Of a stretch of DNA of 28,778 bases, positions 466 through 26,861 are shown piece after piece. The number at the start of each line of letters is the position of its first letter. Position 1 is the stretch's first letter. Source of the stretch: Syncephalis plumigaleata (taxonomy: Eukaryota > Zoopagomycota > Zoopagomycetes > Zoopagales > Piptocephalidaceae); the NCBI GenBank assembly GCA_025201365.1, contig JAIXMF010000162.1, positions 1-28,778 on the forward strand, given 5' to 3'. A program made the translations under genes and the position numbers. Below the pieces are notes generated by a model that was given only the letters and a program-made list of their open reading frames with translations, was not told the origin of the DNA and did no database searches.

Positions 466-587
466 ATTTATTAATAATCATACTAGTCATTATAATAAAA
501 GAAACGCTACTTTTAAATGAATATAGTAAACGAGTATCATCATACATGTATATTAGGCATACTCATTAACTTTTATTATTATTGCTA

Positions 588-1928: not shown

Positions 1929-2058
1929 CTTGTACTAGTGCCTAATAATAAAGTGAACAACTACTGGATAGGAACAAGGTAGAAAGAGAAAGAGTGTGAT
2001 TTATAATGATATGATACGTGAAAGCAACGTGCTAGTCATTGATGGAATATAATTGGTA

Positions 2059-2474: not shown

Positions 2475-2573
2475 TGTTATCTACGCTTGCGTATGATTTA
2501 TTTATGTATTCTTGATTAAAATAACGTCATTGTATTTCTCTACCCCATATCGCCTTTCTTATTCCATTCCACT

Positions 2574-4259: not shown

Positions 4260-4303
4260 TAAAAGCTAAAAGCTAACGGCGCTAGTCAGTTGGAAAAACA
4301 CTG
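4260..4303. repeat. Element E: solo terminal inverted repeat of the CAGTGTTTTTCC family
   Basis: The plus strand reads toward GTTGGAAAAACACTG and is followed by TA at 4304-4305. Its reverse complement, CAGTGTTTTTCCAACTGA, matches the right ends of elements B-D and F. A GCTAAAAGCTAAC block lies inside it, as in the other copies. No partner end is visible upstream, so this is a solo or deleted copy. It lies in the gap between the F-box gene and the truncated proteasome fragment. Confidence 0.6.
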
Positions 4304-4752: not shown

Positions 4753-5478
4753 GATTTCTACTTGGAACTACACGAATAAACATCCGATCCAGCATCATTT
4801 TAGCCGATTCTTCACTTTACTATATTTACTTCAATATCATGCTAATTTTAGTTCAACCTATACAAATAGAATGTTCTTCCTTTCATTCTAGACAGTTCAA
4901 TGACCAAATCAAACATAAAGGTCTTTAATCTCAGCTAACTGAGTTATAACAGCTATGAATATGCGAATTCCATTAGGAACACTGCCAATTATAGCAGTGG
5001 TATATCCATTTTTACAAAGCTCTAATTGAATGGCATGCCAACGTGCCATGTAGCATGACAGCTGTAACATTCCGCAAACAAAGCGGCACTAGTATCATGT
5101 AATATTTACAAAGGCGACGATTGACTACGCTAATACCAACTTGCAATGCCAACACGCAATAGACAATGCAAACAACCATTCTATGGTGATATGTGTCTAT
5201 ACACACATACGCACAATACAGTCAATCCACCGTGTTATATTTTTATATTTATGATTCTACACGATAATGCTTGCTTCCCACGTCTTATCCTAATGCGACA
5301 CTTGCTGTTATTTACAGAATGACTACGATTAATGAATGGGTAAATCGTTTGATCATTCAAGGAATGAGATTATTGAGATACTAAAAAAGTCTACATGTTA
5401 TCCATTTTTATTACACTCCATTGAATTGCCTTAACCTTGTCGTTTTCACATTGTTAACTCATCGTCTGGCGAGATCAT
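4753..5478. other. Gene-poor stretch, nothing recognised
   Basis: About 725 bases follow the broken beta-1 fragment. I find no ORF with family character, no transposon ends and no RNA gene. The small antisense frame at 5012-5206 shows no recognisable motif. The distal part is probably promoter for the secreted peptide gene downstream. Confidence 0.5.
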
Positions 5479-5486
5479 TATAAAAA
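5479..5486 (+). promoter_or_regulatory. TATA box of the 62-aa secreted peptide gene
   Basis: TATAAAAA followed by GGCC lies 167 bp before the ATG at 5653. Between them is a long CA/CT-rich leader (ACACACACAC at about 5525, CTCTCTTCTC at about 5546). A strong TATA box with a pyrimidine/CA-rich leader fits a highly transcribed gene. The transcription start is inferred to be roughly 25-35 bp downstream. Confidence 0.65.
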
Positions 5487-5652
5487 GGCCGTCGTTCATC
5501 GTCATGAAGAGAACATATCATCACACACACACAACCAACAACCAGCTCTCTTCTCTAGTCAACTGTCTAATAATCACTTTTGATATTATATCGCAATACT
5601 ATATACACACCTGTTCAACAATCAACCAATCAACCAACTAATTAATATCACC

Positions 5653-5841
5653 ATGAAGTTCTCCACTGTCATCTTCGCTGCTGCCGCCATCCTCATTGCC
5701 GCCGCTTCCGCCGAGGCTCGTCCTGGTTTCACCAAGCCACCAACCTCTGGTACCCCATGTGCTGCCGGATCTCCTCCAACTGCTGGTCTTACCTGCCAAC
5801 CAAGCGGTGATGGCACTGGCTGGTGGACCTGGCGCTACTAG
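5653..5841 (+). CDS. Small secreted peptide, 62 aa, two cysteines
   Basis: A short intronless gene with start context ATCACCATGA. Residues 1-20 are a clear signal peptide (basic Lys2, hydrophobic core VIFAAAAILIAAA, cleavage likely after ASA or AEA). The mature part of about 40 residues is rich in Pro, Gly and Thr, has two cysteines (36 and 48) that could form one disulphide, and ends with a Trp-rich tail (GWWTWRY). Codon choice is strikingly different from most neighbours: GCC/GCT, ACC, ATC, TTC, CCA and GGT dominate, the pattern of very highly expressed fungal genes. It has its own TATA box upstream and an AATAAA at 5957-5962. I recognise no family. It could be an abundant secreted or cell-wall-associated peptide, an antimicrobial, or an effector; none of these is shown by the sequence. 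Confidence 0.82.
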   Translation: MKFSTVIFAAAAILIAAASAEARPGFTKPPTSGTPCAAGSPPTAGLTCQPSGDGTGWWTWRY

Positions 5842-5956
5842 ATTTAATCTGCATTGGCAGATTGATCCCAGCAGTTTATTGAAGAATATCTGACATGTCT
5901 CATTACTTTGACTAATCGAGTCTGGTCCTATATACATATACACATATACATATTGT

Positions 5957-5962
5957 AATAAA
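5957..5962 (+). terminator. Polyadenylation signal of the secreted peptide gene
   Basis: A canonical AATAAA lies 115 bp after the stop at 5841, within AT-rich sequence with TATATA runs on both sides. This is the expected 3'-end signal for the peptide mRNA. Confidence 0.5.
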
Positions 5963-6193
5963 CTGCATTGATATATTCAAACTACATATATATATACTAC
6001 AGTATCAAATTATCATATTGTTAAATTTCCCTATTGAAATCATTAATACATCCAACAAATGCCAATCGGTTGTCAATGAAAGGAAGTGAATCGAGGAAAA
6101 TCGTAACATTATGTTAAAAACGAATCAAAATTGATAGTAATTGCTAATGAGGGAGTAATTCTTTTCTCATTCTTTCGCATTCGCTTACGCAAC

Positions 6194-7285
6194 ATGTCTA
6201 ATCAAGAAGCAACTAGTCTGACGGCGCAAATACTTCGAGCTACTCGTTCTGGTCATGATAAAACGGACAAGTTGGCGCAATTACGTTCAGTGACCGCACT
6301 CAGAGATGCTCGTCTTTATCGTCAACTGCTACGAGACTTTTGGGCTGTCTACCAGTCGTTTGAAGCAGCCTGGTCGACAATATTGCAGGATAATAGGAGT
6401 ACTGCCGACAAGGAACATCTAGGTCGTGTGCAGGAAATACTCACTAACGTTTGGATGCCGGAATTGGCACGAACAGCGGCATTTGAGGTTGATTTAGAAT
6501 TTTATTACAAGGATGATGCACGATCATTACTGGCATCCAATGCAACAACAAGTATATCCGATAATGATGATAATAATGCGTCATTCGACGAGATAACCAT
6601 TGCGCGACGAGCATTGGAATTAGCCGAGGAAAGTATGAGTCCGGCTGCCAAAGCGTACAAGGTATAGGTTTCATTCATTCCACTATTACTTGATCATACA
6701 CTAAACTACTCATCTAGACTCATATTGCGGAAATAGCCATTACTGAGCCTATTAGATTATTGGCCTATGCGTACACCATGTAGCTAGTTTACTTGACAAT
6801 ACGCTTATCGTGTAATAACCATGATATTTAGGTATTCTGCCATTACAGCTGGTGGTCAAATATTACGATCTCGTCTAGTAAAGCACTTATTGTTCTTTAC
6901 ACCAACAGATGAATCGCAATCAAATTTACCACGTTCTGCGTTACATCCGGAGTACGCGTTGAATGGACAGCAATTGTTTGATTTCTATCCAGTTGCAAAT
7001 GTACGAGAGGATGCTGTGGAGGATTGGCGGCTTGAACGTCCTATTCAACGCAAGCGACTTCGAACCGAGCTAAAACGTCGCTTGGACGCCTTGACATTGT
7101 CGCCATCCGAGATTGACACCATTATTGATGAGGCCAATTACATTTTCGCTAATAATGCCAAGGTGCTAAGCGAAGCGAGTGATGGCGCCGGATGGTATCT
7201 CCTGCAATGGGCACTATCATGGGGTGCAATTACTGCCGCAGTGGCTGCAACAACCGTATGGCTATTCTCCATCTGGAAACGATAG
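6194..7285 (+). CDS. Heme oxygenase-like protein with C-terminal membrane anchor
   Basis: Three exons (6194-6661, 6718-6779, 6832-7285) join in consistent phase to give 327 residues. The heme oxygenase fold is recognisable: ILRATRSGHDKTDKL near the N-terminus places His21 where the proximal heme ligand sits, the middle carries PIRLLAYAYTMYSAITAGGQILRSRL (GGQ at 184-186, written here as one run broken by exon 3 at Met177), and the C-terminal third keeps the LLFF...EANYIFANNAKVL pattern. The last 25 residues form a hydrophobic helix closed by WKR, a tail anchor as in eukaryotic ER heme oxygenases. Family role: oxidative cleavage of heme to biliverdin, iron and CO at the ER face. Oddity: the distal-helix GD of GDLSGGQ is replaced by AI here, so the catalytic Asp is absent. 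An in-frame ATG at 6131 exists, but 6194 fits the family N-terminus better. Confidence 0.82.
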
Positions 7286-7328: not shown

Positions 7329-7622
7329 CAGGGTTTTTCCAACCGATTAACACTGTTAGTCTTCAAGTTTTATCTTTATTAATAAATACATTCTTAGTGC
7401 AAGGTAAATTCTAGTTATGCAGAACGTTGTTTGATGCGGCCTTAATGGCATTCACATTGTGATAATAACATGAGATCAATGCTCAACAAAGAATAAAGCA
7501 TCTACTAATGAAAGCTTCTATACTCACATAATGACAGCGACAAAGATGCTAACTATTATGTAAAAATATTTATTAGGAGCAAGAGTTAAAGGCTAGCAAT
7601 GCTAATCGGTTGGAAAACACTG
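7329..7622. mobile_element. Element F: 294-bp MITE with TA target sites
   Basis: The left end reads CAGGGTTTTTCCAACCGATT and the right end, reverse-complemented, CAGTGTTTTCCAACCGATTA, an inverted repeat of about 21 bp with one indel and one mismatch. TA dinucleotides flank both ends (7327-7328 and 7623-7624), the target duplication expected of Tc1/mariner-type insertion. The interior holds no coding frame and I see no Fanzor remnant. The outermost CAGNGTTTTTCCA is shared with elements B-E, so one transposase could mobilise all of them. It sits between the 3' ends of the convergent heme oxygenase and secreted-orphan genes. Confidence 0.8.
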
Positions 7623-10888: not shown

Positions 10889-11421
10889 CAGACTTTTTCC
10901 ATCCAATTTGCGCAGTTAGCCTTCTGTTTTATGAATAATTATGATGTTAACACTTACGTATTTAGATGTGGTCGCGATAACGCCACGGTTAATTTGATTT
11001 TCGTTGTTTGGACCCCGTTGTCCTTGTCCTTCTTTCTTTGAACGCTTAGAAGGAACGGCACCTCGTTGGAATTGTGTTGGAACACGACCATCAGCACGAT
11101 GACTGCGAATAATCTGAATGAAGTTCAGACATGCAGCCATATCCCGATTCCATACACGATAATCAATAGCTACTTGTAGGTACATGACATGGTAATATCC
11201 AACTATACTAGTACACTTGTATCATCTACCTTATAGAATTGATGATGATAGTTAACACTATCAATGAATGATCCATTACTGAATACTGAATTGTTATTAT
11301 TATCATGCTGTGTCAATTGGCATATCTGCGGTGATAATGGTGTTAACAGTTGTGTTAATCTATCTATTAATAAACAGCAAACGTTAAAGGATAAATGCGC
11401 AAGTTGGATGGAAAAACACTG
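10889..11421 (-). mobile_element. Element B: 533-bp non-autonomous Fanzor-bearing TIR element
   Basis: Complete element with imperfect inverted ends: left CAGACTTTTTCCATCCAATT, right (reverse-complemented) CAGTGTTTTTCCATCCAACT, both continuing into a TTGCGCA block. TA flanks both sides (10887-10888 and 11422-11423). The end sequence CAG.. with TA targets is Tc1/mariner-like. Read on the minus strand, the first 40 percent is non-coding and the rest carries the C-terminal Fanzor frame (listed separately). No transposase is present, so movement must depend on enzymes encoded elsewhere. It lies between the histone-fold gene promoter and the 3' end of the PP2C gene and has the same orientation as element C. 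Confidence 0.85.
10916..11185 (-). pseudogene. Fanzor C-terminal RuvC-III frame in element B
   Basis: An 89-codon frame contains DYRVWNRDMAACLNFIQI, then GRVPTQFQRGAVPSKRSKK and a basic, Gly/Gln-rich tail. NRD with downstream A..N is the third RuvC catalytic segment of TnpB/Fanzor RNA-guided nucleases; the VPTQFQR stretch after it fits the C-termini of fungal Fanzor-type proteins as I know them. The frame stays open for 12 further codons upstream of the ATG (YKCTSIVG...) to a TGA. The stop codon TAA lies inside the terminal repeat (10916-10918), so coding and element end overlap. A GTAAGT in the frame at KYVSV could alternatively be a splice donor. Alone this is far too short for nuclease function, since RuvC-I and RuvC-II are missing. 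Confidence 0.68.
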
Positions 11422-11643
11422 TATGTATCAACGATGAATGTGTATGCATAGAGTATCTACTATATACGTGTTTACAAATCAATAGATTGGAGCAAAAAAA
11501 GAAACACCAATATTTTGCGACTTTAATATTCAATGATAAACTTGTTCACAGCAGTGTTGCCAATAGTACAGCCCTACAGTTCTTCCATGAATGGACAGGA
11601 CATGGTCATTACTATTACTATCACTACTACTGTTGCTACTATA

Positions 11644-13797
11644 TTATTCGTTGGATGGCTTCTTTGGTTCTTCTACCTGATGATGACGATGCTGATGCTG
11701 ATGCTGATGATCCGTCGTTTTCTTTTCTTCGGCATTTGTTGTAGCAGCCTCCTTTGTCGTTTGCTCGAATGTACGCATCTCCGGTCCTGGTGACTCGACA
11801 ATCTGTTGTGCCAGTGTAGATGGGTCCACCTGATCCGATGATGGATTCGTCTTGTTAGTTGCAGTATTGGTACTGTTAGCTTCATCATTGGTTGCTGATG
11901 CTGATGCCGATGACGATGATGCTGCCAATGGCTGCTTCATAGATGGATCGATATCGGCATAAAGTGGACTCTTGGCCTCCTCTTCCTCGGCCCGTGTAAA
12001 TGCTAGTCCTGCACCCGCATGACTCTGCAGCATACGCATGAACATTTGCATACCCGCTGGTGTTGGGCTAGACGACAAGTCATCGTCATCGTCATCGTTA
12101 TCCCTACCCTCGCCCGATTGATCATTGGATGATTCTACCTCATCGGTCTCGCCTAAAGGAGTTGCCTTGGGTGCAATCCAATCGTACCATTCCTCCTTGG
12201 TTCGTCCATTGAGAATGGCTACAATCGTGACCGTCATGTTGTCACAACCGACACCGCCCATATCGCTTTCCTTGGCTAGACAGCGTTCCATGATACGTTC
12301 GCAAATCTTATCCAATGGAAGACGAGCAGCAATGCCACGACGAACGTAATCGATAACTTTTTGAGATGTTAGGCAATCCCAAATACCTAGATGAAATGTA
12401 ACAATATCATTAGATTAGATTTGTTAGTTTAATTGTAAGTTGGATACATAATCTACAAGCAAATCACTCATGCATCTATGTGTATATTTACCATCACATG
12501 CCAATACAACAAATTCATCCTTGTCGGTAATGGTATGTTCCGTGATTTCAGGATTAGCTATTTTCATTACATCATCATATTATATTAGTTTACATAATGT
12601 TAATATGTGTGCATATATAATGGTGGTAGTTTAGTTTGTCTACTATTACTACTACTATTATTATTACTACTTACAAGTAACAATCTGTTCTTCAGGTGGT
12701 AGCATTTTATTTTGTTTGAATTCAAAGTCGCCAATTGCTCGTGATAAGGCGAGATTGCCTAAGAGAAAGTAAGTAAATAAATAAGTAAATAAAATCTAAT
12801 TCATTTCTTACCATTAACACGTCCAAACTCAACAAATCCACCAGCATTTACAATTCGAGCCGATTCATCTAATAGAGTAGTGATCAGTCAGTCAGTCAGT
12901 CAGTCAGTCAGCCGAGTAATCACATAGCATATTATATTATGATGGCTTTACCTTGATTAACTGGTTTATGATCAAAGGATAATGGCTTTGCTTCACCGTC
13001 AATACTCAATACAGCACGTGAGTCACCAGCATTCGCCTATAATAAATAGATAGTCATTCTATTATGTTCTTCATCTAATAGGGGTTTCCTATTAAATACT
13101 TACCACAAACAAGTGCATGTCATCGGTAATCAGAGCCGATACTGCTGTGCATCCTGATGTCTCGTTCACGTAATCAGGATCTACATTGATGATAAAGTCA
13201 TCATCATATGGTAAGAAATAAAACGTCATCGATCTAGTTCATTCATGTCACACTAACCACTACGGATATCAATGTCCAGACCGAGATAGCCATTCTTCAA
13301 TGCCGTTTTATAGTCTCCATTGGCAAACGCATTGTCCTGGGCAATCCGATGATGTAGCATACGACCGCTATATTCGGCAACTTTCTGACCTGTTGCATTG
13401 ACAAATTTAGTCCAGTCCAATTGTCAATTACCATTAGCTATCCTCTCTCTCTCTCTCTTTGATACTTACCACCATGACCGTCGTAGACACCAAAGAAGCT
13501 AACTCGTTTTCCGTTTCCTAATTGGAGAACAGTGGCATGCGCATCTTCCATACCTATAAGTGACATTGGTCTAGATGAAAGTTATAGCTGTTTATGACTA
13601 TTCGCATGTCTACATATATGCACATATATATGCATATATATATATGGTTGTGTTTCTTTAGACTATAATAAAACAAACAAAACAAAAAGGATACTGATAC
13701 GCCAGCCTTGCATACAGGATGTGCCATAGTAAAGACGATCGTCAGATCCCTCGGACGAGTGCTTATCACGCACCGGTTCAGATAGAGTTTGCCCCAT
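11644..13797 (-). CDS. PP2C-type Ser/Thr phosphatase (Ptc2/Ptc3-like)
   Basis: Nine exons on the minus strand (13797-13695, 13553-13470, 13389-13258, 13180-13104, 13036-12952, 12868-12812, 12758-12675, 12557-12492, 12386-11644) give 476 residues with all phases consistent. The start [15 protein letters not shown] matches fungal Ptc2/3 and could be N-myristoylated at Gly2. Catalytic motifs are intact: MEDAH (36-40), metal-binding DGHGG (59-63), [25 protein letters not shown] and GCDNMT. These enzymes are Mg/Mn-dependent monomeric phosphatases acting on stress-MAPK and checkpoint kinases. After the catalytic domain (to about 300) comes a low-complexity acidic/Ser/Thr tail with a DDDDDD run and a His/Gln repeat near the C-terminus. 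Introns crowd the catalytic domain, while the last 743-nt exon is uninterrupted. An upstream in-frame exon might lengthen the N-terminus (see findings). Elements B and C flank the gene. Confidence 0.93.
12884..12911. repeat. (CAGT)n microsatellite in a PP2C intron
   Basis: About seven tandem copies of a CAGT/GTCA unit lie inside the intron between the fifth and sixth PP2C exons (12951-12869). The repeat is 16 bp from the acceptor side, so large length changes could affect splicing; otherwise no function is visible. Confidence 0.75.
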
Positions 13798-14944
13798 AAC
13801 CACAACACGAATGACTTTGAACGACCGCTTTGGCTCTATGCAGTACAGAGAAGACAATATGATTAGTTGAATACGACGACACGTTCTACAATAGCATCTC
13901 TAATCTGAAGTAAAGCAACAGGGTATATGAAAGTAGGTGCCAATGACCGCATCTTGTAACTTACTCTTAAATGGCCACTTGTTGAATGGATTTAGAAAGT
14001 CGACTACTGATTGAAAAGACAAGGAGGTAGTAGAGGGAGTGAAGTTAACAAGAGAAGAAGAGGAAGAAGTAGAAGAAGAAGTAGAAGAAGAAAGAGAAGT
14101 GGTGGTGGAGGAAGAAGAAGAAGAAAGAGGAGTAGAGGTTGGGGACGCCAGTTTGATAACAATGGTGGTGGTGGTGGTGGTGATGTGTTGTGTGTGTGTG
14201 TGTCCTGTTGTAGGTAAGGAAATAGCCTGTAATGTGGTGATGATGTGATGCTCCCACCAATAGGACGAACCCGTGCGCTTAATAGTTTGTCGTTTAACAA
14301 CCAATTACTGCTGCTATACAGGATACGTGTATGTGTGTGTGGACAGGCACGATGTAGCCGTGTTATTAGTCACCGAGTGGATGTAGTGAAATGACGACTT
14401 GCTTAGCTATCTCTCCACTGAGCTAATAACACTGCACGTACGTTTACTTGGTAGATACGTCACGTGTCAGTATTGTCATAGAAGAACTGCAGGCTGACTT
14501 TGAGTGTGCAGTGTTGCGTTTATAGGATAAGCGAAAGCAAAACTAGACAAAATGAATAGATGTGAGCGATACAAGTGAGACAAATAATGAAACAGAGCTT
14601 TATACCTATAAACAAATGGATTATTGGTTAGTATCCTAGGCAAGCACTCGAGTAAAGTAGTAGAATATAATGGCAGACTACGAGAAAGCTACTATACTAG
14701 AAGTGAGAAAGAAAGAAAGAAAGAGCAGGAGCGAGAGCGAGAGAGGAAAAGGCAAGTGGAGCAAACGAGTGTGATGATTATATTGCTTTATAAGCATAAT
14801 GAGGCATAAAGCGTTGCAGCAATACTGAATAGCAACAGCAGCAACGGCAGCAATAGCAACAACAACAATGGCGATATCAATGGATTGCATGTGGTAACTG
14901 CATGACATGCTAATGCAATCTACACTAGGCTCTTTCGTATCGTA
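13798..14944. other. PP2C upstream region with purine-rich and GTG repeats
   Basis: Upstream of the PP2C start. It holds GAA/GAG-rich sequence at 14042-14140 (CTT/CTC-rich on the PP2C sense strand), (GTG)n at about 14160-14182, (GT)n at 14188-14201, an imperfect hairpin with tRNA-like A box at 14360-14432 (listed separately), GAAA/GAGC repeats at 14705-14750 and CAGCAA-type repeats at 14826-14865. A pyrimidine-rich sense-strand leader is typical of fungal promoters. A spliced N-terminal PP2C extension is possible at 13835-13797 and upstream of 13965. No independent gene can be supported. Confidence 0.5.
14360..14432 (-). other. tRNA-like imperfect hairpin (degenerate)
   Basis: A 73-nt stretch is closed by a perfect 10-bp inverted repeat (GTGTTATTAG / CTAATAACAC). 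On the minus strand it continues TAGCTCAGTGGAGAG, an exact match to the tRNA A-box pattern TAGCTCAGTGG, at the correct distance after a 7-bp acceptor-like stem. The length equals that of a tRNA. However, there is no B box (GGTTCGANNCC), the T-arm does not fold, and no anticodon stem pairs well. It is either a decayed tRNA relic or a chance palindrome. Confidence 0.25.
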
Positions 14945-15477
14945 CAGGCTTTTTCCATCCAATTTGCGCAGTTAGCCTTCTGTTTTTACGAATAAATGAT
15001 AGTTAACACTTACGTATTTAGATGTGGTCGCGATAACGCCACGGTTAATTTGATTTTCGTTGTTTGGACCCCGTTGTCCTTGTCCTTCTTTCTTTGAACG
15101 CTTAGAAGGAACGGCACCTCGTTGGAATTGTGTTGGAACACGACCATCAGCACGATGACTGCGAATAATCTGAATGAAGTTCAGACATGCAGCCATATCC
15201 CGATTCCATACACGATAATCAATAGCTACTTGTAGGTACATGACATGGTAATATCCAACTATACTAGTACACTTGTATCATCTACCTTATAGAATTGATG
15301 ATGATAGTTATTGCTATCAATAAAGGATCCATTACTGAATACTGAACTATTATTATTATCATGCTGTGTCAAGTGACATTTCTATAGCGATGATGGATGT
15401 TAATAATGTGTTAATCTATTTATTAATAAACTGCAAAAGTGAAAAGATAAATGCGCAAATTGGATGGAAAAACACTG
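14945..15477 (-). mobile_element. Element C: 533-bp non-autonomous Fanzor-bearing TIR element
   Basis: Same length and orientation as element B. Left end CAGGCTTTTTCCATCCAATT, right end (reverse-complemented) CAGTGTTTTTCCATCCAATT, with TA on both sides (14943-14944 and 15478-15479). Bases 15002-15310 are identical to 10946-11254 of element B over 309 positions, whereas the 57 bp to the left and 167 bp to the right differ at many positions. It lies between the PP2C upstream region and the Slh1 gene. Confidence 0.85.
14972..15241 (-). pseudogene. Fanzor C-terminal RuvC-III frame in element C
   Basis: An 89-codon frame identical in protein to that of element B except for the last residues (ending in KTEG after a YHLFV stretch where B has IIIIH). 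It includes the WNRDMAACLN motif and the basic GQGQRG tail, and stops at TAA within the terminal repeat. The same interpretation applies: a retained 3' piece of a Fanzor gene without the rest of the RuvC fold. Confidence 0.68.
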
Positions 15478-15607
15478 TATTTTACGCCATTATTAACAGA
15501 CTATGTCACATTACGATTTTTAGTAAATGTCGTAATGGTTCTCCAGCATTATCAGTGTGACTCAGTGATGCTTTGATGAGATCATAAATGCATCACTTTA
15601 CACCTCC

Positions 15608-15640
15608 CACTCACTCACTCACTCACTCACCTCACCTCAC
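15608..15640. repeat. (CACT)n / CTCAC microsatellite before the Slh1 gene
   Basis: About five tandem CACT units followed by two ACCTC units, 90 bp before the Slh1 start codon. It lies in the probable leader or promoter; the sense strand is pyrimidine-rich like other fungal leaders in this window. Confidence 0.7.
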
Positions 15641-15728
15641 ATACATATTTCCTCATATCCACTTATCCCGACAGCCATAGTTTATTTGTCAATATTCCTG
15701 AATTAGCCAGTGTCGTATTGTTCATATC

Positions 15729-18700
15729 ATGTATACTTTTACTGATTACATTCGATATCGTAACACGAATGACTCTATCGTGCCTGCCGCTACTAGTATT
15801 GGTACATCACTAATCAGTGGAGAATCAGCCTTATTAGAGGATTTCCTTCGTAGCTTGAATGTATCGAGTGAATTCTCATCTATTGAAAAGTAAGCAACAA
15901 ATCTATAGAAGGGACCACACCACTAACAGATATGTAGTGTCGAGAGTAAGCCTAGTAATAATAGTAATAGTAATAGTAATAGCAATGGCGTGAAAGCAGG
16001 TAGTTATTGTGTTGCATTATTATCAGTCAAACTTGATAGCGTGTTAATGTGGAGTGTACCCATGGCTATAGGATATGGTAAAGACTGGAAGGTGGCACCA
16101 ATGTTTACAAAGCCAATCTATTTCGACTATTTCGACGATGAAGATGGTCATATACTATGGCCGAACGAGACTGAGGATGAAACGATTACTGAGTCAACAT
16201 GGACATTCGAATGGCTGTTGGAGTAAGTGGATTGTTAAAATACTAAGATGATCGACTAGTCGAATACTAATATTGGAATAACAATGACACGCTTAGTCAA
16301 TGTGAGGCTCATTTAGCGACAAATGAAGCTAGTAAATGGATGACAGCACGACAACTATCCATGGAGTTATTGGAATTGTTACATTCTAATAAATCAGGTA
16401 GCAACGTGAATAGAAATCGAATAATACCTGCGGGAATACTAAACAATCTGCCTATTAGATGATGCAATCCAAATGGCCCTAGTAGATATACTGGGACTGG
16501 ATAATTTCTACCTATTAACGAGTCTAGTTACTCATCGAACGGATATTGTCAGGAATACCAATTTGAAAGAATGTGTACGTAGTTAATCCGACCTATTGAA
16601 TTGTAAATGTATCACACACTGTCGATAAACTAATGCATGAATGAATAGCGGGATAGCTTACCAAAAGTGGAGAAACCAGCAATAGGTTAGTACAATCAAT
16701 CATTGTATATACGCATTACTAGTTGAGGAATATTAATCGAATGGAGTAGCACTCGATGGCGAACGACTAAGGAAAGTAAGGGAGCAACAACTACGTGATG
16801 CTGCCTCTCGTCCATTGGCATCTAGCAATTCACAAAAGGTAGGTGGTGTCAACAAGATTAACATATATATATATGTATGTATGTATGTATTAATATGACG
16901 GTTAGGTGTTCTCTGAGCCAGAATATCCACACGTATTTCATACTGGATCGATGCGTAAACCAATGCCGGCATTTGGTATCACTTATGTACTACCTGAAGG
17001 CACAGTACGTCAAGATACTATGGTGAGTTGAATAGATGTTGTCATCCCCGAGTACTACTAAAGATGCACGCGCATACTATTAGGATTATGAGGAAATTGC
17101 CCTGCCTGCTTCAACTAAGGCTGCACAACTTCCTGGCGAGGAACTCATTAGTATCGCTAGCATGGATAGACTGTGTCGAGGATGTTTCCCGGTACGTAAG
17201 CATGTCGAGTATATGTGTTTATTCCCCTCCTCCCTCCCATCCATGTTTATTCATACTATCAAATAGGGTTACACCACACTGAATCGTGTACAATCAATTG
17301 TATACCCCATTGCTTATACAACAAATGAGAACATGCTGATATGTGCTCCCACCGGTGCGGTAAGTTGCTAGTTATTATAGGCTGTGATTTTCTTTTATTT
17401 ACTTAGGAATGAATGTAACACCCATCGTTGCGTGATGTTAGGGTAAAACTGACGTGGCCATGCTATCCATTTTGCGTACACTTTCACTTTACTGTACACC
17501 CTCTCCATCAGAGAGTGCGAACGAGCTACACATCGACAAGGATGCATTTAAGATTGTATACGTCGCTCCTATGAAGGCATTAGCCGCTGAAGTGGTGGCC
17601 AAACTCGGTCGACGTCTGCAATGGCTACGTGTTTCAGTCAGAGAATTGACAGGTAGGCATTATCATTGGGTGTATGCCACCTTATTGTTAGCTAAATCAG
17701 GGCTAACTAACACAAATGAAATGTATGTAAAAAGGTGACATGCAATTAACGAAAACTGAGATTATGAACACGCAAATCATTGTGACTACACCTGAGAAAT
17801 GGGATGTCGTCACTCGTAAATCTACCGGTGATACAGAACTATGTCAGGTAAGAGCAATATCCATATGAATATATACAAATACAAATATACAAATACAAAT
17901 ATGTGTGCATTTATAGAAAGTGCGACTATTGATTTTCGATGAAGTACATTTATTACAAGATGATCGTGGACCTGTCATTGAAACACTAATTGCACGTACA
18001 TTACGTCAAGTAAGTAATACTTAATATTACTACTAGTATAAACATTAACATGTATCATGTATTAAGGTTGAAACGAGTCAGTCGATGATTCGAATTGTTG
18101 GTCTATCGGCAACATTGCCCAACTATTTGGATGTTGCATCATTCCTTCGGTAATTCCATTACAATTATAGGATATTTGTTACATTTATTAATCCAGTAAT
18201 CAATTAGAGTTAATCCATATCAAGGCTTGTTCTTTTTTGATTCCGGATTCCGACCTATTCCATTAGAGCAGCATTTCATTGGTGTTAAAGGCAAGGCGAA
18301 AACCATTCAAGCCAACACTAGAATGGATAATATATGTTACGAAAAGGTAAGTGGCGATTGAACTTGTTGTGAATTATACATTAATAATACTGAGTATATT
18401 GTTTAATAGTGTGCAGAACTAGTACGAGAAGGACATCAAGTGATGATATTTGTTCATGCACGTAAAATGACAGTGAAAACAGCGCAATCTATTCGAAAGT
18501 TGGCACAGGAAAATGATGAACTTGGTATGGAATCTACCGAGTGATAACCACAATAACAATGGTGTATAGTATACTAACTACTTTACTTGATTAATACTCA
18601 GGTATATTCTCAAGTATTGATCATCCACAATGGCGTCTATCGAAACGAGACATGGCACGATCACGTAATCAAGATTTGAAGGAATTATTCGAGTATGGTT

Positions 18701-21700
18701 TCGGTGTACATCATGCAGGAATGCTACGATCAGATAGAAATCTTGTGGAACGACTATTCTCTCAAGGTGTTATGAAGGTAAATGGATAGACTAGTGTAAT
18801 ATAATCTATTTGATTACCATTATAACATCTTCTTACTCTTATTGTTCTTGATCCAAGGTTTTATGTTGTACATCGACACTAGCATGGGGTGTGAATCTAC
18901 CAGCCTATGCTGTTATTATTAAAGGAACTGAGGTGTATGATGCGCAAAAGGGCGGTTTCACCGATCTATCCATATTGGATGTGTTGCAAATATTTGGGCG
19001 TGCTGGTCGACCACAAGTAAGTTGCCGGTGAATAGTATATTAGCACGCAATGATTTATTTATTATTATTACTATTATTGTTAGTTTGAATCACAAGGTGT
19101 TGGCTATATCATGACATCACATGAACGTTTATCGCACTATATATCATTGATGTTACAGCAACATCCGATAGAGTCGCAGTAAGTAGTGACAATGAACGAG
19201 AACAGCAATGATATTAATGACAGTACAATTAGATTCGTCAAGAATATAGTGGATCATTTGAATGCTGAGATTTGTTTAGGCACCGTGACGACAATTGATG
19301 AAGCGGTAACCTGGCTTAGCTACACCTATTTGTACATTCGCATGAAGAAGAACCCGTTAGTCTATGGACTAACTCATGCGGAAGTAGCCGAGGATCCATT
19401 ACTCGGTAAACGACGACGTGATTTGATCGTTGACGCGGCACGTACACTTCATCGTAATCAGATGATTATATACGACGAGAATACCGGCTATTTATCGGCC
19501 AAGGACCTTGGACGTATATCAGCGGGATTCTACATCAAGTGCAACACCGTGGAGCTAATCAACGAACGATTACGACCGCGTATGACCGAGGCCGATGTAC
19601 TATCGCTTATTAGTGCCAGTAAGGAATTCGATAGTATCAAGTCGCGCGAAGAAGAGGCCAAAGACCTGAAACAATTGCAGGAGAAAGGCGGCGTTTGTAC
19701 CATTAAGGTGGGTCAACAGCAGACTAACTAGCTAACTAGCTCGTATTAATCGAAACAACAACCCTATAATAGGATACGGCAGATCAAACATCCGGGAAAG
19801 TCAATATTTTATTACAGGCGGCTATTTCACGAGTGGCCGTTACGGATTCGGCACTTGTCTCGGATACTGCATACGTATTACAGAATGCAACGCGTATCAT
19901 TAGAGCCTTATTTGAAATTGCCCGCAATCGTAGTTGGGGTCCAGTGGCGGCCGTGCTACTCTCCTTGTCAAAGTCACTCGAGAAGCGTATGTGGCCATTT
20001 GAGCATCCACTTGGCCAACTGGGCCTACCATGGGATATCATCAATAAGCTTGAATCGCACAGCCATGCACCTGCCATTGAATCGATGCGCGACATGGATA
20101 GCAAGGAACTTGGTCAGCTGGTGCGTAATGTACGCTTCGGGCCAACACTGGCTCGCGCTGTTGAACAATTTCCCTTGATACAACTCGAGGCCACTATCGC
20201 ACCCATATCACGCTCGGTACTTCGTATGCAACTGAAAGTGACCCCGGACTTTACCTGGAATGATCGTATTCACGGCACCGTTGAGCCATGGTGGATCTGG
20301 GTGGAGGATTCGGTCAATACCGAAGTGTACCACGCGGAACAATTGCTAATCACGCGAAAGAACGCGAGAGAAACGCAACTACTAGGATTCGTGTTGCCCA
20401 TTCCTGATCCGCTGCCAACGCAAATATTTGTACGCTGCGTATCCGATCGATGGATAGGTGCGGAGACCGTGTTGCCCGTTTCATTCAAGCATCTCATCTT
20501 GCCCGAGATGTATCCGCAACACACGGATCTATTGGATTTGCAACCGTTGCCCGTATCGGCATTGCAGGACGAACTACTCGAGGAGATATGTCGCGTGCGT
20601 TTTAGTCATTTCAATCCGGTGCAAACGCAAATATTCCACACACTGTATCATTCGTCGACTAACGCGCTAATTGGCGCACCCACCGGTAGTGGTAAAACGG
20701 TAGCGGCCGAACTAGCCATGTGGTAAGTGTGAATTGTGGCATAGATGCTATTTATGACAAGTGCAAACTTATTCATGCCGATTTAGGTGGGCATTCCGGG
20801 AATTTCCTCGATCTAAGGTTGTTTATATCGCTCCACTCAAGGCACTCGTACGCGAACGTGTTGTCGATTGGCGTAAACGACTCACGGGCATTATGGGACG
20901 GAAGTTGGTGGAATTGACAGGTGATGTCACGCCAGATATTGCGTCTATCAAAGCGGCCGACATTATCATTACTACACCCGAGAAATGGGATGGTATTAGT
21001 CGTGGATGGAAGCATCGTGACTATGTTCGCGCTGTATCCCTCGTCATTATCGATGAGATTCATTTATTGGGCGCGGATCGTGGACCTATCCTCGAGGTGA
21101 TCGTGTCTCGTATGAATTATATCGGCTCGCAAACGGGTAGAGCCATTCGTATCGTTGGTCTATCCACCGCCCTTGCCAATGCGCGTGATCTGGCCGACTG
21201 GCTAGGTATCGATAAGAGTGGCCTGTTTAACTTTCGTCATTCGGTGCGACCGGTTCCCCTTGAGATCTACATTGACGGATTCCCCGGTCGACACTACTGT
21301 CCGCGTATGGCGTTGATGAACAAGCCGACATTTACGGCGATTAAAACGCACTCGCCCACCCAGCCGGTCATTGTATTCGTGTCGTCTCGTCGACAGACTC
21401 GATTAACGGCAAAGGATTTGATGGCGTATTGCGCGATGGAGGACAACCCACGTCAGTTCCTGCATATGCCAGAGGAGGAATTGCAAATGTTACTAGGTAC
21501 TCAGGTGGAGGATGCCAATCTACGTTTATCACTTGGGTTTGGTATAGGATTGCATCACGCCGGATTACGCGAGGAGGATCGTAAACTATCCGAGGAACTC
21601 TTTGTTAATGGCAAGATACAAATACTCATCGCCACGAGTACACTGGCATGGGGTGTCAACTTTCCCGCACATCTCGTGGTGATTAAGGGTACCGAGTTCT

Positions 21701-23499
21701 ACGATGCTAAACAAAAAGGCTACGTAGATTTCCCGATCACCGATGTACTTCAAATGATGGGACGAGCCGGTAAGCTACTATATAGATTCGCGATGGCTAT
21801 GCCAATAAGAACAAACATCGTCTAATGCATACGTTGTTATCCCCTATGATATAATGTGTAGGTCGTCCGCAATTTGATAACTCGGGTATTGCACGTATTT
21901 TCGTGCAGGATAGCAAGAAGAGTTTCTATAAGAAATTCCTACACGAGCCATTCCCGGTGGAGTCAAGTCTACACTTGCACTTGACGGACCATTTAAACGC
22001 GGAAATCGTGCAAGGCACCCTTAAAACGAAGCAAGACATCATGGACTACTTGTCGTGGACCTATTTATACCGACGATTAAGCCTTAATCCAACGTATTAC
22101 GGCCTCGAAGACCCGAGTCCCACCGGTGTTAACCAGTACTTATCGCGTCTAATTGACACGTCACTCGATGAATTGAAAAAGTCGGGCTGTGTCGACGTGG
22201 AGACGGACGAGGAAACAATCGTGTCAGCGGGTGTCAAGCATTCGGATCATATGCTTCAACCCACTGAACTAGGTCGTATTGCTTCCTTCTACTATTTGCA
22301 ACACACTACAATGCGTATATTTAAGCAGCGACTAGTCACGGATAGTATAGATGAAGAGGAGCTACTTCGTATTCTATGTGATGCCGCCGAATACGATGAA
22401 TTACCCGTGCGACACAATGAAGATATCACCAATCGTGATATGGCGGAACACTTGCCACTTCGAGTGATTACACACGATTTCGATAGTCCACATACTAAGG
22501 CATTCCTACTACTACAGGCGCATCTCTTGCATCGTGCATTACCGGTGGCCGACTATGCAACCGACACTATATCCGTGCTTGATCAATCAGTACGTATTCT
22601 ACAAGCACTTATTGACGTAGCAGCCGAGTTAGGCTACTTGAACGTTGGACTACGTGCTATGCATTTGTTGCAGTGTATTAAACAAGCACGAGGATGGGAT
22701 GACTCGACACTACGCTGTCTACCACCATTAGATGACCAATCGATTGTGGAACAATTGAACCAGGTAACTCATTAACATTAGATACTTTTTTATTACTACT
22801 ATTGCTAATGGTAATCATCATTCATTTAGCATTCTATTGGATCATTAGCTGAACTATTGGAATTACCAACGAGTAAACTTGACAAACTACTCACAAGTAT
22901 ACAACAACAGAATCTTATTGAACCAGTAAGTGCTTTACTACTAATAACATTACTCGACGAATGTCAAGTGATTATTCCCCCTTCTAATGAAGTGTATACA
23001 TTAATCTTTCTTTTTTTCTCTCATTTAGGTTCAACACTCGTTAACCACCTTGCCCATCATGTCGGTAGAATTATCGATGCCGGACTCCGTGTGCGTAAAC
23101 AGTTTAATACAAATCCGAGTCACCCTTGAACGACTATTCTATCCCCAACAACGGCAACATCGCGGTAAATCACCCAACAATGTCACATCGGTATCGGAAC
23201 ATAAACAGAAATATGACGGTCGTGCGTATACCCCACACTTTCCCAAAGTACAATACGAAAGTTGGTGGCTATTACTCGGTGACATTGAACAAGATGATGT
23301 TATGGCGTTGAAGCGCGTCAACTTCCAACAGGAACGATTTGAAGGTCGGCCACCCACTGGTACACGACAATCGAGTACCCTTTGCTTACAAGCACCTGAG
23401 ACACCGGGCAACTACGAATTTACATTATTTATTATAAGTGACGGTTATCTAGGACTAGATCAACAAATACCGGTTACCCTTACCATATTAGCCGAATAA
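15729..23499 (+). CDS. SLH1: Slh1/ASCC3-type tandem Ski2-like RNA helicase
   Basis: Twenty-four exons give 2,055 residues, every junction phase-consistent: ends at 15889, 16222, 16397, 16574, 16685, 16838, 17022, 17191, 17359, 17652, 17847, 18009, 18149, 18346, 18524, 18777, 19016, 19178, 19707, 20722, 21769, 22763, 22925 and 23499. Cassette 1 has Walker A APTGAGKT (365-372, split by an intron), DEVH (485-488), a GLSATLPN motif and FGRAGRPQ, then a Sec63 unit. Cassette 2 has APTGSGKT (1224-1231), DEIH (about 1328-1331), the STALAN variant usual in cassette 2, and MMGRAGRPQFD, then a second Sec63 unit ending with ESWWLLLGD. The N-terminal WLLDQCEAHL region and RPQFDNSG...[16 protein letters not shown] fit Slh1/ASCC3 better than Brr2. 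Slh1 is the helicase of the ribosome quality-control trigger complex, splitting collided ribosomes; ASCC3 also aids alkylation repair. Both cassettes look catalytically intact. AATAAA overlaps the stop codon. Confidence 0.95.
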
Positions 23500-23609
23500 T
23501 AAAGGACTCGTACTATTGATGGTGTGAGTAACTCGTTACAACAACATCAACTACTACTACTAAATGGGCCATCTATGAAACCGACGGCTTAGTTTGATGC
23601 CGACTGCTA

Positions 23610-24150
23610 CAGTGTTTTTCCATCCAATTTGCGCATTTATCCTTTAACGTTTGCTCTTTACTAATAAATGGATTTGCACAATTGTTAACACCATTATTGC
23701 CATAGAAATGCCAATTGATACAGCATGATAATAATAACAGTTCAGTATTAGTAATGGATCCTATATTGATAGCGATAACTATCATCATCAATTCTGTAAG
23801 GTAGATGATACAAGTGTACTAGTATAGTTGGATATTGCCATGTCATGTACTTACAAGTAGCTATTGATTATCATGTATGGAATCGGGATATGGCTGCATG
23901 TCTGAATTTTATTCAGATTATTCGCAGTGTTCGTGAGGACATGGGTATTCCAACACAATTCCAACGAGGTGCCGTTCCTTCTAAGCGTTCAAAGAGAGGA
24001 GGACAAGGACAACGGGGGTCCAAACAACGAAAATCAAATTAACCGGGATAGTTATAGCTATCTTTCACGAAAATACGTAAGTGTTATTATAACTATTATT
24101 TGTTCGTAAAGACAAAAGGCTAACTGCGCAAATTGGATGGAAAAAGTCTG
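23610..24150 (+). mobile_element. Element D: 541-bp non-autonomous Fanzor-bearing TIR element, opposite orientation
   Basis: Left end CAGTGTTTTTCCATCCAATT and right end (reverse-complemented) CAGACTTTTTCCATCCAATT, flanked by TA at 23608-23609 and 24151-24152. The coding direction is plus, opposite to B and C. It aligns with B along its whole length but differs at roughly one base in twelve in the core, so it is an older relative. It lies between the 3' end of the Slh1 gene and the acyl-CoA oxidase start (170 bp downstream), so its right end may fall in the oxidase promoter. Confidence 0.85.
23845..24109 (+). pseudogene. Fanzor C-terminal frame in element D, frameshifted
   Basis: The frame starts like B and C with DYHVWNRDMAACLNFIQI and PTQFQRGAVPSKRSK. 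At 24014-24018 there are five G where B and C have four; this single added base moves the frame, so the original frame stops at 24042 while the conserved tail (GPNNENQINR...KYVSV) continues in the next frame to 24109. The catalytic-type NRD is unchanged. The shift shows that this copy's protein tail is not maintained. Confidence 0.65.
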
Positions 24151-24320: not shown

Positions 24321-26861
24321 ATGACTACATTGACACCAGTGGAACAGCAACCAGTTGACCTTGCTAATGAACGACGTCAATGTTCATTTCCAGTCAATGA
24401 ACTTACTAACGTCTTTCACGGAGGTCAAGCTGCCTGGGAGCGTAAACAATGGCTAATGAGTCTAGTGGAAAAGGACCCGGTATTTGATCGATCCGATCGA
24501 TATTTCCTAGGTCGTAGTGAAGTAAGCCACTATTTATATTCATCATAGATAATGGATAGAATAATAATAATGAAATATGATCATTTAGCGGTTTCACAAA
24601 GGATTGCATCGTATGCGACGTCTAGTAGAATTACGAAGTCAACACAATTTATCATCAGAGGATATGATTACCCTTCGATTGGCATCCGATGAATATATAC
24701 CGGTATGTAAATAGAATAGAAGGAGAAAGAGAAGAACGATATTAATCCATTACCATGCTCTGTTAGATTTATCTACATTTCGGTATGTTTATACCAACGC
24801 TTGAAGGTCAGGCCAGCGATGAACAACAAGCAAAATGGTTATCTGACGCATTACAATTCCGTACACTTGGATGGTAAGTGATCAGCTAGATTGTTATTAG
24901 AGTAGTAGTAATCAACCATGTTCATCTATTAGTTATGCACAGACTGAATTAGGTCATGGTAGTAATCTATCAGGACTTGAGACAACAGCCACACTTGATA
25001 AATCGACAGATGAATGGATTATACATTCACCGCATCTTTCGGTAAGATGAAATGGAAAACCTATGACATATACAATCTATCCCATTGACCATCAAATACA
25101 TCATTTATATAGTCTGCTAAATTCTGGATTGGTGCTCTTGGCAAGACAGCAACACACGCCATTGTCGTGGCTAAACTGATCATTGACAAGCATGATTATG
25201 GTGCACATCCATTCTTCGTGCCTATTCGTTCACTAGATGATCATAAGATATTCCCCGGTATTACGATTCATGATATTGGACCTAAAGTGGGAGCCAATAC
25301 AATGGACAATGGATTCATGATGTTCGATCATTATCGTATTCCACGCGAGAACATGTTGATGCGTTACTCGCGTGTATCACGTGAAGGTGTCTACACAAAA
25401 CCGATTCATGACAAGTTGGCCTATGGTGCTATGGTAAGTAGTAGTAGCAGAATAGTATATCTATCTAGACTGACAATGAATAACGTATTATACATCATGC
25501 TATATATATATATATATAGACCTTTGTACGTGTGGCTCTCGTTGTCGAATCGGCGGAAACACTCTCGCGTGCCTGCACCATTGCTACGCGTTATTTAGCA
25601 GTACGTCGACAAGGTCCTGTAAAGAAATTGGATCAATCTCTCGAACCACAAGTGCTCGATCATTTAATGGTGCAGTATCGAGTGCTTCCTCGTATAGCGC
25701 AAACGTATGCTCTACGCTTTACAGGCATGTGGATGTACAGAATGTATGACAAATTAATGAAGATGCTTGCCAATCACGATGTCAGTATGTTGGCCGATGT
25801 TCACGCGTATAGTTCCGGATTAAAGAGTTACACGACCACGATAGCCATGGATGGTATTGAAGATCTACGCAAATGTATGGGTGGTCACGGGTAAGTAATA
25901 GCCATACTAATATTGATATTGATGTTGATATTGATATTGATGCATGTAATTTACTGCTATAGTTACTCCATGTTCTCGGGCATTCCTGATTTCTATACTA
26001 CCGCCTTGCCTACTAATACGTATGAAGGTGAAAACTATCTACTTACTGTAAGTGATTGAACGCAAATTAGATAATACTGTTACTTATATGTATCCATGTA
26101 TATGTGTATAGCAACAAACTGCAAAATATCTATTGAGACAAATGGAACTAGTAAGTAGTGGGCAGTTGAACGCACTGTCCAGCACCACTAGTTATCTACG
26201 CCAATTGTTGGAGCCATCTCTATTTGCACAACAACGATGGTCGGTACAATCAGCGCAAGATCTCAATGATGCCACGGTGATACTTGACGCGTACGCTCAT
26301 CGTGCAGCACGAGTCATTTACGAGTTGGCAATCGCCAAGCGTACCGGTGTAGCCTGGCCCGATCTACAAGTGGAATCATCGCGTGTATCGCGTGCCTATT
26401 GTCAATACATCATCGCTTATTGCGTGACACGCTATTTGAGCAGCAAGTCATTCGCTGGTCTATCCTCATCCACGCAAACGGTTATGCAACGCTTAATGAC
26501 GCTCTACCATCTTTATACACTCGATAATAATATGGGTGATTTCACCGAGGACGGTTTCATATCCGCCAGTCAGGTCACGCTTATTCGTAGTGAACTTCGC
26601 TCGTTATTACGCCTCATTCGACCTGATGCCGTTGGTTTAGCGGAGAGTTACGGCTGGCCCGATTTCCTATTGAATTCCGCCCTAGGTTCAAGTGATGGTC
26701 GTGCCTACGAGCGTATGGTCGAGAGTCTCCTACGTGATCCGCTCAATAACAGTGAGATGCAAGATGGCGTCATTCGTAGTTATCACGACTGTATTCGTCC
26801 ATTGATTAAAGGAGAAGTTGGGGTATGGAAAGGACCGAATGTCAATCAATCCAAGTTGTAA
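24321..26861 (+). CDS. Peroxisomal acyl-CoA oxidase
   Basis: Eight exons (24321-24521, 24589-24702, 24767-24873, 24933-25041, 25113-25433, 25520-25890, 25963-26047, 26112-26861) give 685 residues, close to the usual 650-700. Family marks in order: FHGG and [12 protein letters not shown] near the N-terminus, [12 protein letters not shown] (FAD/substrate site, codon for Cys split by an intron), [27 protein letters not shown] with the [12 protein letters not shown] loop, GGHGYS, and TYEGEN, where Glu429 is the likely catalytic base. The C-terminus is SKL, a perfect type 1 peroxisomal signal. The enzyme performs the first step of peroxisomal beta-oxidation, oxidising acyl-CoA to trans-2-enoyl-CoA with FAD and producing hydrogen peroxide. 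All motifs look intact. An AATAAA lies at 26940-26945. Element D ends 170 bp before the start codon. Confidence 0.95.

Follow-up and report, generated by a model that had tools for sequence, protein, structure and literature searches.

The closest described counterparts of the elements reported here are the ghost Spu-1 elements of Spizellomyces punctatus. The available portion of Saito et al. (2023, PMC10432273) describes these as ~550-nt elements with ends like those of a Fanzor element and without a Fanzor gene, present at 134 loci as opposed to 42 loci with a full or partial Fanzor, and raises the possibility of help in trans. Bao and Jurka (2013, PMC3627910) report, in the sections accessible to us, elements that carry Fanzor1 alone, with Mariner-type ends and duplicated TA. 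Among solved structures, Parasitella parasitica Fanzor1 (PpFz1, PDB 9cf0; Xu et al. 2024, PMC11423790) is the closest to the full-length protein discussed below.

The mini-elements of Syncephalis plumigaleata are like ghost Spu-1, as far as the excerpted account goes, in being short, in having Fanzor-type ends and in outnumbering Fanzor copies. According to the same excerpts, ghost Spu-1 carries CA before its 5' end (TAM CATA), whereas the Syncephalis elements have TA flanks; it is said to have no Fanzor ORF, whereas the Syncephalis minis keep the last 54 Fanzor codons; and no transposase flanked by ghost ends was found, whereas in Syncephalis related ends occur on an intact Tc1-like transposase family. 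Set against that description, allelic exchange with full copies is also a Syncephalis feature. The elements of Bao and Jurka resemble Syncephalis Fanzor1, but the accessible sections do not describe a deletion family with a RuvC-III end or allelic exchange. PpFz1, in the available part of its description, differs from the Syncephalis protein, which has its RuvC-III end in a second frame. In a literature search by title, no work was found linking Fanzor to MITEs, nonautonomous elements or gene conversion. Ghost-like minis are already known; the in-place exchange of mini and full-length interiors appears to be new.

The DNA stretch under analysis (the window, 28,778 nucleotides) is S. plumigaleata contig JAIXMF010000162.1, positions 1 to 28,778, forward strand (GCA_025201365.1). 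It contains the following features, with strands given as gene strands.

7329..7622, no strand assigned: related MITE, its ends (CAGGGTTTTTCCAACC..) resembling those of a Tc1-like DDE_3 transposase family
10889..11421, minus strand: mini-element B, 533 bp, TA on both sides, insertion missing from the allelic contig C351
10916..11185, minus strand: RuvC-III remnant frame of B (MYLQVAIDYRVWNRDMAACLN...), continuing beyond the usual stop
11161..11169, minus strand: deletion junction of B, gene-5' positions 1-251 joined to full-element positions 3859-4138 via ~9 nt
14945..15477, minus strand: mini-element C, 533 bp
14972..15241, minus strand: RuvC-III remnant frame of C
15217..15225, minus strand: deletion junction of C
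23610..24150, plus strand: mini-element D, 541 bp
23845..24042, plus strand: RuvC-III remnant frame of D, from the junction ATG to the natural stop, 65 aa
23861..23869, plus strand: deletion junction of D

The ends, TA flanks, WNRD motif and absence of a transposase that the initial annotation ascribed to B, C and D are all found in the sequence at these positions. B, C and D are genuine insertions with Tc1/mariner-type ends, and at B's site on the allelic contig C351 the element is absent and a single TA remains. On this contig the allele of C is a 598-bp element (L089) that shares the flanks and the 5' half of C but has another 3'-coding block, 65 bp longer and rearranged. The allele of D (L021) is of equal size with 17 differences, every one within positions 187-390. 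Between C and B, element positions 168-476 show no differences. The MITE and its allelic copy (L091) are of the same size with 1 difference in 294 bp; this single MITE is the control for exchange from outside the family.

The end pattern TACAGNNTTTTTCCATCCAATTTGCGCA, with up to two mismatches, gave 449 + 437 matches in the 32.6 Mb genome and none for the reversed control, and therefore ~440 elements are present. Their ends are unequal: CAGTG predominates at the gene-5' end and CAG(A/G)C at the gene-3' end. TA occurs at both sides of 41 of 42 elements (one has CA on one side). Four empty sites were read: those of B and L044 are clean single TAs, L030 is off by a few bases, and L055 is not clean. 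Alignment to the full element reveals that the minis combine 251 nt of its gene-5' end with 280 nt of its gene-3' end, with B, C and D each corresponding to positions 1-251 plus 3859-4138. Coding for RuvC-I and RuvC-II is absent from these three elements because positions 252-3858 are missing. The initial annotation had proposed that only the RuvC-III end is kept, which overlooked the 251 nt of the gene-5' end. All 24 aligned minis have an identical junction, which is present at 190 places in the genome; ancestry, single junction and TA insertion are observed directly, and the mini family, with ~190 copies, stems from one founding deletion. A 226-bp class (L049) retains no more than the terminal 62 nt on the 3' side and has lost the RuvC-III codons; the 40 scored of 947 candidates for this class are all at least 88% identical to L049. 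The middle of a 1.1-kb class, read in three elements, has no similarity to Fanzor exon-1 frames at E 0.001. Every size class read carries the guide-side end. The tally is of the ghost type, with ~440 elements by ends, 190 with the mini junction and ~41 Fanzor loci.

A genome search confirmed the expectation that B has full-length relatives with a RuvC fold. Copies of 4.1-4.5 kb with an unbroken frame of 614-743 aa occur at 28 loci in the same genome. With phmmer, the exon-1 frame matches PpFz1 with E 6.6e-108 and SpuFz1 with E 1.8e-32. In the 4.1-kb copies, an acidic linker precedes the RuvC-III end, which is encoded in a second frame. This segment (RLWNRDMAACLNF) aligns with RLWNRDQAAVLNF of PpFz1, collinear in the same chain, although the match is weak alone (E 0.07). 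The alignment of WNRDMAACLN to PpFz1 and the match of the full-length copies to the same protein identify the WNRD frame as the RuvC-III end of Fanzor1, as had been claimed. The frame of B and the relic frames have no matches in Pfam. The Fanzor frames gave nothing above a curated cut-off in Pfam, and PF07282, whose controls were positive in 6 of 14 genomes, retrieved no Fanzor from this genome; the model does not cover Fanzor1 of the Syncephalis type. DPGRRD, with the RuvC-I aspartate, is present in 8/8 full copies and the zinc motif IDExxTSxxCPxC in 7/8, with L050 unmatched by the pattern. Over 28 pairs from 8 full-length copies, dN/dS ranges from 0.31 to 0.58. The intact Fanzor genes are under purifying selection, and RNA-guided cleavage is their predicted activity.

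The minis are non-autonomous, as had been suggested, and the same genome contains both Fanzor and Tc1-like transposase families. A Tc1-like transposase frame of the DDE_3 type (383 aa) is unbroken in five copies. Only one end of this element was located; it matches the gene-5' end of the Fanzor element at 44 of 62 positions, an agreement that 2,000 shuffles never reached. The Tc1 families tcA and tcB were rejected as partners: their ends are unrelated and fail the same shuffle test. None of the 26/26 DDE_3 candidates scored carries the exact CCATCCAATTTGCGCA end, nor does it occur at any of the 30 loci retrieved alongside them, each taken with ~1.5 kb of flank where the contig allows. DDE_1 (PF03184) gave no match, and its controls were silent as well. 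A Tc1-type transposase probably moves the minis in trans.

The remnant frame is kept through most of its length in 26 of 27 minis (L016 is shifted early), and 24 of the 27 have an in-frame Met upstream. The initial annotation had spoken of the last 70-90 codons of Fanzor. The Fanzor end is indeed kept, but the natural C-terminus lies 54 codons from the W of WNRD. It is attained in 23/27 minis, D among them; B and C, whose 89-codon frames shift near the end, overrun it, and L089 is a longer variant. Over 40 codons, pN/pS is 0.46 for minis and 0.49 for six full copies, at loci mostly picked by protein score. Exchange with full copies accounts for this frame retention equally well as a micro-protein.

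Sites for the comparison of alleles were chosen by similarity to B, end pairs or long frames, not randomly; of 28 typed via their flanks, 9 were without a second copy found and 3 were ambiguous. At 16 allelic site pairs both sides are occupied: six differ in size class, three of these being full-length on one haplotype and mini on the other (L053/L017, L054/L035, and L056 vs C1:2829924-2830471), and two further pairs differ by 65 and 119 bp. Of the class changes, those of L029 and L038 have the mini 105-352 bp from a contig start. At the three full/mini pairs, 0.4-0.6 kb of flank was compared on each side, with 97.9-99.5% identity. The pair L026 (C86)/C2 was excluded, as its second flank is 84% identical and matches equally well elsewhere in C86, which has two mini junctions.

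Eight pairs were compared base by base. In the outer ends, allelic differences amount to 0.016 vs 0.094 for non-allelic pairs, a value as low in none of 20,000 resamples, with 15 of 520 non-allelic pairs at or below 0.03. In contrast, centres differ by 0.105 between alleles and by 0.099 between unrelated copies. For 13 minis the set includes the allelic partner, and this allele is the nearest relative of the coding block in 0/13, of the gene-5' outer block in 11/13 and of the 3'-UTR block in 8/13. Distances in 5' and 3'-coding parts among 19 minis are uncorrelated (Mantel r -0.19 and -0.14). The coding block of the mini L004 has no differences from that of the full-length L054. L035 and L054 share their last 120 nt with 1 difference (next best copy: 10); their gene-5' outer 100 nt have 7 differences, with the allele only rank 11 in closeness, and therefore the exchange tract reaches almost to the end. 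Allelic size differences and interior mosaicism are directly observed at these sites. Mosaics of SNPs between minis may be an effect of polishing repeats with reads, which cannot account for the changes in size.

Such chimeric interiors at fixed insertion sites are as in Tc1-style template switching. Fischer, Wienholds and Plasterk reportedly found in 2003 that fixed-site Tc1 copies of C. elegans take sequence from dispersed copies, and are said to have ascribed this to template switching following excision. There intact copies are said to exchange, whereas the Syncephalis exchange alters the size class and can add or remove an RNA-guided nuclease gene. By this analogy, template switching in break repair is the likeliest cause. 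A combination of one internal deletion, Tc1-type movement in trans and template-switch repair that swaps interiors between minis and full copies is, in our judgment, a probable account. A 4.1-kb TA-inserting Fanzor1 element with Tc1/mariner-type ends would have given rise, by one internal deletion, to a MITE-like 'ghost' family whose members a Tc1-type transposase would move in trans. A break at or within an inserted element would be repaired by copying, and this copying could jump to any other relative, whether a mini or a full-length copy. Only the interior would be exchanged, with flanks and ends still allelic, so that a single site might go from full Fanzor to mini, or the reverse. Because the minis' remnant shares one exchanging pool with the full genes, it would keep its coding-like character. 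We infer which transposase may move the minis, that excision may supply the breaks, the direction each change may have taken and whatever part Fanzor cleavage may play.

Another reading holds that the minis are guide-RNA units, transcribed through their coding-side end into the flank, with an RNA that loads full-length Fanzor; the RNP would cut the uninserted allele, and repair would then keep or copy the mini. We regard this as possible but rather doubtful. The ~550-nt ghost Spu-1 elements had scaffolds functional in human cells, according to the available text of PMC10432273, intact Fanzors under purifying selection occur in this genome, and the 3'-terminal 36 nt are almost invariant (30 of 36 columns in 20 diverse copies). 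However, the 5' end is similarly conserved (27 of 36), as transposase sites would be; over 60 columns, 40 are invariant at the 3' end vs 38 at the 5' end. The consensus fold of the 3' end has compensatory changes in none of ten pairs, and nine single 3' ends fold to -12 to -18 kcal/mol with no evident common shape. A conserved fold is not supported by these results; a short scaffold may still be present. An A at -4 is found at 26/37 gene-5' flanks vs 15/37 on the other side (p 0.019), but this TAM-like asymmetry was rejected, being absent from a larger listing (62 lettered of 277 matches: 30 with CAGTG and 28 with CAG(G/A/C)C ends); among 100 end-pattern matches listed, 45 have CAGTG and 50 CAG(G/A/C)C. 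The proposal that exactly the guide-RNA part is kept is not supported: both termini are retained, as in any internal deletion, the 226-bp class has no RuvC-III codons, and the 3' fold lacks covariation. As a prediction from sequence, it is possible that the minis carry a guide RNA scaffold.

Copying driven by Fanzor itself seems unlikely. A flank-derived guide would lead to cutting of the empty allele and filling from the occupied homolog, with switching that alters interiors. This would account for changed interiors inside allelic ends and for the lasting maintenance of the Fanzor frame. It is also consistent with the greater flank divergence at empty sites, where joined 80 + 80 nt flanks are 82-98% identical (six sites), as opposed to 15 of 20 single flanks at least 99% identical at ten occupied partners. 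Yet this contrast is equally expected if shared insertions sit in more recently shared haplotypes, the larger listing has no TAM signal, and excision by itself is reportedly enough in the nematode precedent. That guides from minis and full-length copies alike direct Fanzor to emptied or never-filled sites, where homolog repair with switching re-inserts the copied class, we likewise hold to be improbable.

It is quite improbable that assembly or polishing placed the wrong repeat copy into one haplotype. The SNP mosaics do start 69-264 bases inside elements, about short-read length from unique sequence, and several minis lie near contig starts (L028 at 51, L029 at 106, L037 at 235, L013 at 245, L026 at 310, L038 at 352). 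However, the loci checked contain no N, both flanks match at the three full/mini pairs with 0.5-2.1% differences per side, a 3.6-kb size change is not attributable to polishing, and C and L089 differ by that longer, rearranged block. Finally, independent insertions of different members at the same TA on two haplotypes would explain a size difference without recombination, but are very hard to credit given the allele-like outer ends of partners (0.016 vs 0.094), the last 120 nt of L035/L054 and the improbability of striking the same TA repeatedly.

In-place exchange by template-switch repair is the account we favor. What Fanzor does in nature for the transposon that carries it is an unsettled question. 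Syncephalis offers a natural experiment, in which sister haplotypes differ in whether a given site holds a full Fanzor, a mini or no element, and the genome supplies a candidate transposase. A dependence of the exchange on Fanzor would count as evidence that Fanzor assists copying in a eukaryote; were the Fanzor-driven case true, the minis would act as guide-bearing partners of a cut-and-copy system in a eukaryote, and mini and full-length forms would be interchangeable alleles. If excision alone is responsible, short relatives can still erase or restore a nuclease gene in place, which bears on the origin of MITEs and the persistence of selfish nucleases.

The initial annotation had described inverted ends and TA flanks for three mini-elements, and these features were confirmed on both sides of each copy:

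10889-11421, minus strand, mini-element B
14945-15477, minus strand, mini-element C
23610-24150, plus strand, mini-element D

Scanning the genome (32.6 Mb, 383 contigs) for the family ends returned 449 + 437 matches, and the reversed control of the same pattern returned zero. The first 100 ends in the list could be combined into 31 pairs, with sizes of 210-228 bp (n = 4), 541-599 bp (n = 15), 1,022-1,222 bp (n = 11) and 4,181 bp (n = 1). The last pair (L058) is a mini-element with a non-LTR retrotransposon inside; this insertion (203-3694, with a 1163-aa frame containing RT and RNase H) lies near the gene-5' end of the mini. The smallest class corresponds to full-copy positions 1-176 + 4077-4138 (exemplar L049), and every match of this type is at least 88% identical among the 40 of 947 candidates scored. 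The 1.1-kb class combines Fanzor-element ends and pieces of the 3' region with a middle that was not recognised here.

The proposal that full-length Fanzor copies exist elsewhere in the genome held: by way of their long frames we detected elements of 4.1-4.5 kb containing a Fanzor gene. In the 4.1-kb copies a frame of ~635 aa comes first; behind it lies a second one, which contains an acidic linker and RLWNRDMAACLN. The first matches Fanzor1 from Parasitella parasitica (E 6.6e-108) and from Spizellomyces (E 1.8e-32), and is broken in one copy (L053); the second resembles that Parasitella chain at its C-terminus, a match that is weak alone (E 0.07) and lies directly after the first. A protein search with 65/65 candidates scored gave, as tallied from the table, ~41 Fanzor loci, in 28 of which a frame of 614-743 aa is unbroken. 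Comparison of eight full-length copies gave dN/dS values of 0.31-0.58, which argues that this gene has been maintained. B, C and D each consist of full-copy positions 1-251 joined to 3859-4138. Since this junction is identical in 24/24 aligned minis and recurs at 190 genome places (≤3 mismatches allowed), we infer a single founding deletion and later amplification. This kind of family is already known, because two reports describe ghost Fanzor elements from S. punctatus with scaffolds that function in human cells (PMC10432273) and mariner-type elements with Fanzor1 only (Bao and Jurka, PMC3627910). Listings from an open-access library with few subscription papers yielded no account of forms with and without the nuclease being exchanged in place.

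Over positions 1747-25550, the window contig (C71) represents an alternative haplotype of contig C351 near 613-637 kb, with identities of ~94 to 99% in the compared pieces outside elements. The window also encodes ordinary host genes:

588-1928, minus strand, ZIP zinc transporter
6131-6667, heme-oxygenase-like protein
19186-20726, Brr2/Sec63-type helicase
25532-26861, acyl-CoA oxidase

Positions 2064-2474 hold a diverged Fanzor-family relic (~72% to the allele of D) with a frame containing YRVWNRDMTACLN; an end scan found no family end for it, and its allelic stretch is ~95% identical over 982 nt. A lone CCAAC-type end at 4288-4303 (AGTTGGAAAAACACTG, then TA) had no partner by end scan.

B is missing from C351, where one TA is left at the site. 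Three further empty sites were read: one clean TA (L044), one off by a few bases (L030), and one that is not clean, opposite full-length L055 (C223:517400-517950), where a block of ~30-40 nt differs at the insertion point, possibly a repair scar. By way of joined flanks, we typed 28 further sites (14 + 14). Ten have an occupied partner, six an empty one and nine none found; three are ambiguous (L019, one flank only; L048, repeated sequence; L026, poor second flank). All 35 candidates of the first flank search were scored, and 40 of 53 in the second, where failure to find a partner therefore carries little weight. With six pairs seen directly and the L026/C2 pair left out, this gives 16 occupied/occupied pairs, six of which differ in size class. 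Two full-length copies, L053 and L054, share common flanks with minis.

Allelic pairs with changed size class (bp)
L053, 4140; L017, 540
L054, 4143; L035, 536
L056, 4283; partner, 548
L043, 1022; partner, 579
L029, 540; partner, 238 (mini near contig start, weaker case)
L038, 548; partner, 237 (mini near contig start, weaker case)

Two pairs differ by an insert or block (L024, 537 vs 656; C, 533 vs 598), and the remaining 8/16 are equal to within 13 bp; sizes of the 238-, 237-, 579- and 656-bp partners and of equal-sized partners on C298, C319, C1 and C77 come from coordinates alone. The mini junction lies inside the 656-bp partner and a RuvC-III match inside the 579-bp partner. Four full-length copies have a known partner, three opposite a mini and L055 opposite its empty site; flank typing found no partner for L052 and L057 (L050 and L051 were outside the typed set). 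With the element excluded, the three full/mini pairs show 97.9-99.5% flank identity on either side over 0.4-0.6 kb. Separately, C86:310-1420 and C2:439472-440160 apparently contain two close minis versus perhaps one (coordinates only), possibly a copy gained or lost by recombination.

Base by base, the outer stretches of eight allelic pairs diverge by 0.016 versus 0.094 in 520 non-allelic pairs, a value as low being reached in 0/20,000 resamples of eight, and the centres by 0.105 versus 0.099; the stretches were picked once the pattern was known and the non-allelic pairs are mutually dependent. In four mini/mini pairs, all differences fall within 187-390 (D), 265-464 (C), 110-426 (L015/L033) and 104-426 (L025/L031); in L035/L054 the first is at position 40. 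The gene-3' flanks of L015/L033 agree over 214 nt and differ beyond that, and a control MITE shows one difference from its allele in 294 bp. Minis B and C, separated by 4 kb, match perfectly over 168-476 and differ at 43 positions outside this stretch. Among 19 minis, 5' distances fail to predict coding-block distances (Mantel r -0.19, -0.14), and blocks that share a side of the junction are correlated (0.45, 0.38). The coding block of one mini (L004) has 0 differences from full-length L054. The RuvC-III frame attains its natural stop in 23/27 minis, loci mostly chosen by protein score and thus biased toward open frames, and its pN/pS is 0.46 over 40 codons in minis versus 0.49 in full copies. 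Exchange with full copies would account for these open frames with full-copy-like ratios.

A genome search with Pfam DDE_3 gave 26 candidates, all scored. Five of the copies keep a 383-aa frame unbroken, which is DD34E by eye and has Sleeping Beauty as its sole PDB match at E ≤0.01 (2.3e-4). No transposase with the exact Fanzor-element end was found among these candidates or in the 30 loci retrieved with them, each including ~1.5 kb of flank where the contig allowed. The single located end of the 383-aa element matches those of the Fanzor elements at 44/62 gene-5' and 41/62 gene-3' positions, scores attained by 0/2,000 shuffles; two other Tc1 families of this genome did not pass this comparison. 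We regard the 383-aa element as a candidate for a relative of the mobilising transposase. Full-length L051 (C1 near 572 kb) contains at 5024-6676 a complete Tc1-type element with a 380-aa DDE_3 frame; three copies 100% identical to it (L080, L081, L082) suggest recent activity.

We also looked for signs of guide use. TAM asymmetry was absent among the matches listed in a larger set of end flanks, the two ends were nearly equally conserved with no excess on the guide side, and the fold showed no covariation.

A replaced interior between allelic ends and flanks is the expected outcome of break repair with template switching, which Fischer reportedly described for Tc1 in 2003. Such switching is in line with gap repair as modelled for P elements and Tc1 (PMC3878927). 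Since homology is needed on both sides, the tracts lie centrally, and their position is no indication of where a cut was made. Breaks would most simply come from excision by a Tc1-type transposase; repair copying with template switching would then replace the interior, while ends and flanks stay allelic. Cleavage of emptied sites has been proposed for TnpB, and Fanzor cleavage of such sites may be an additional contributor.
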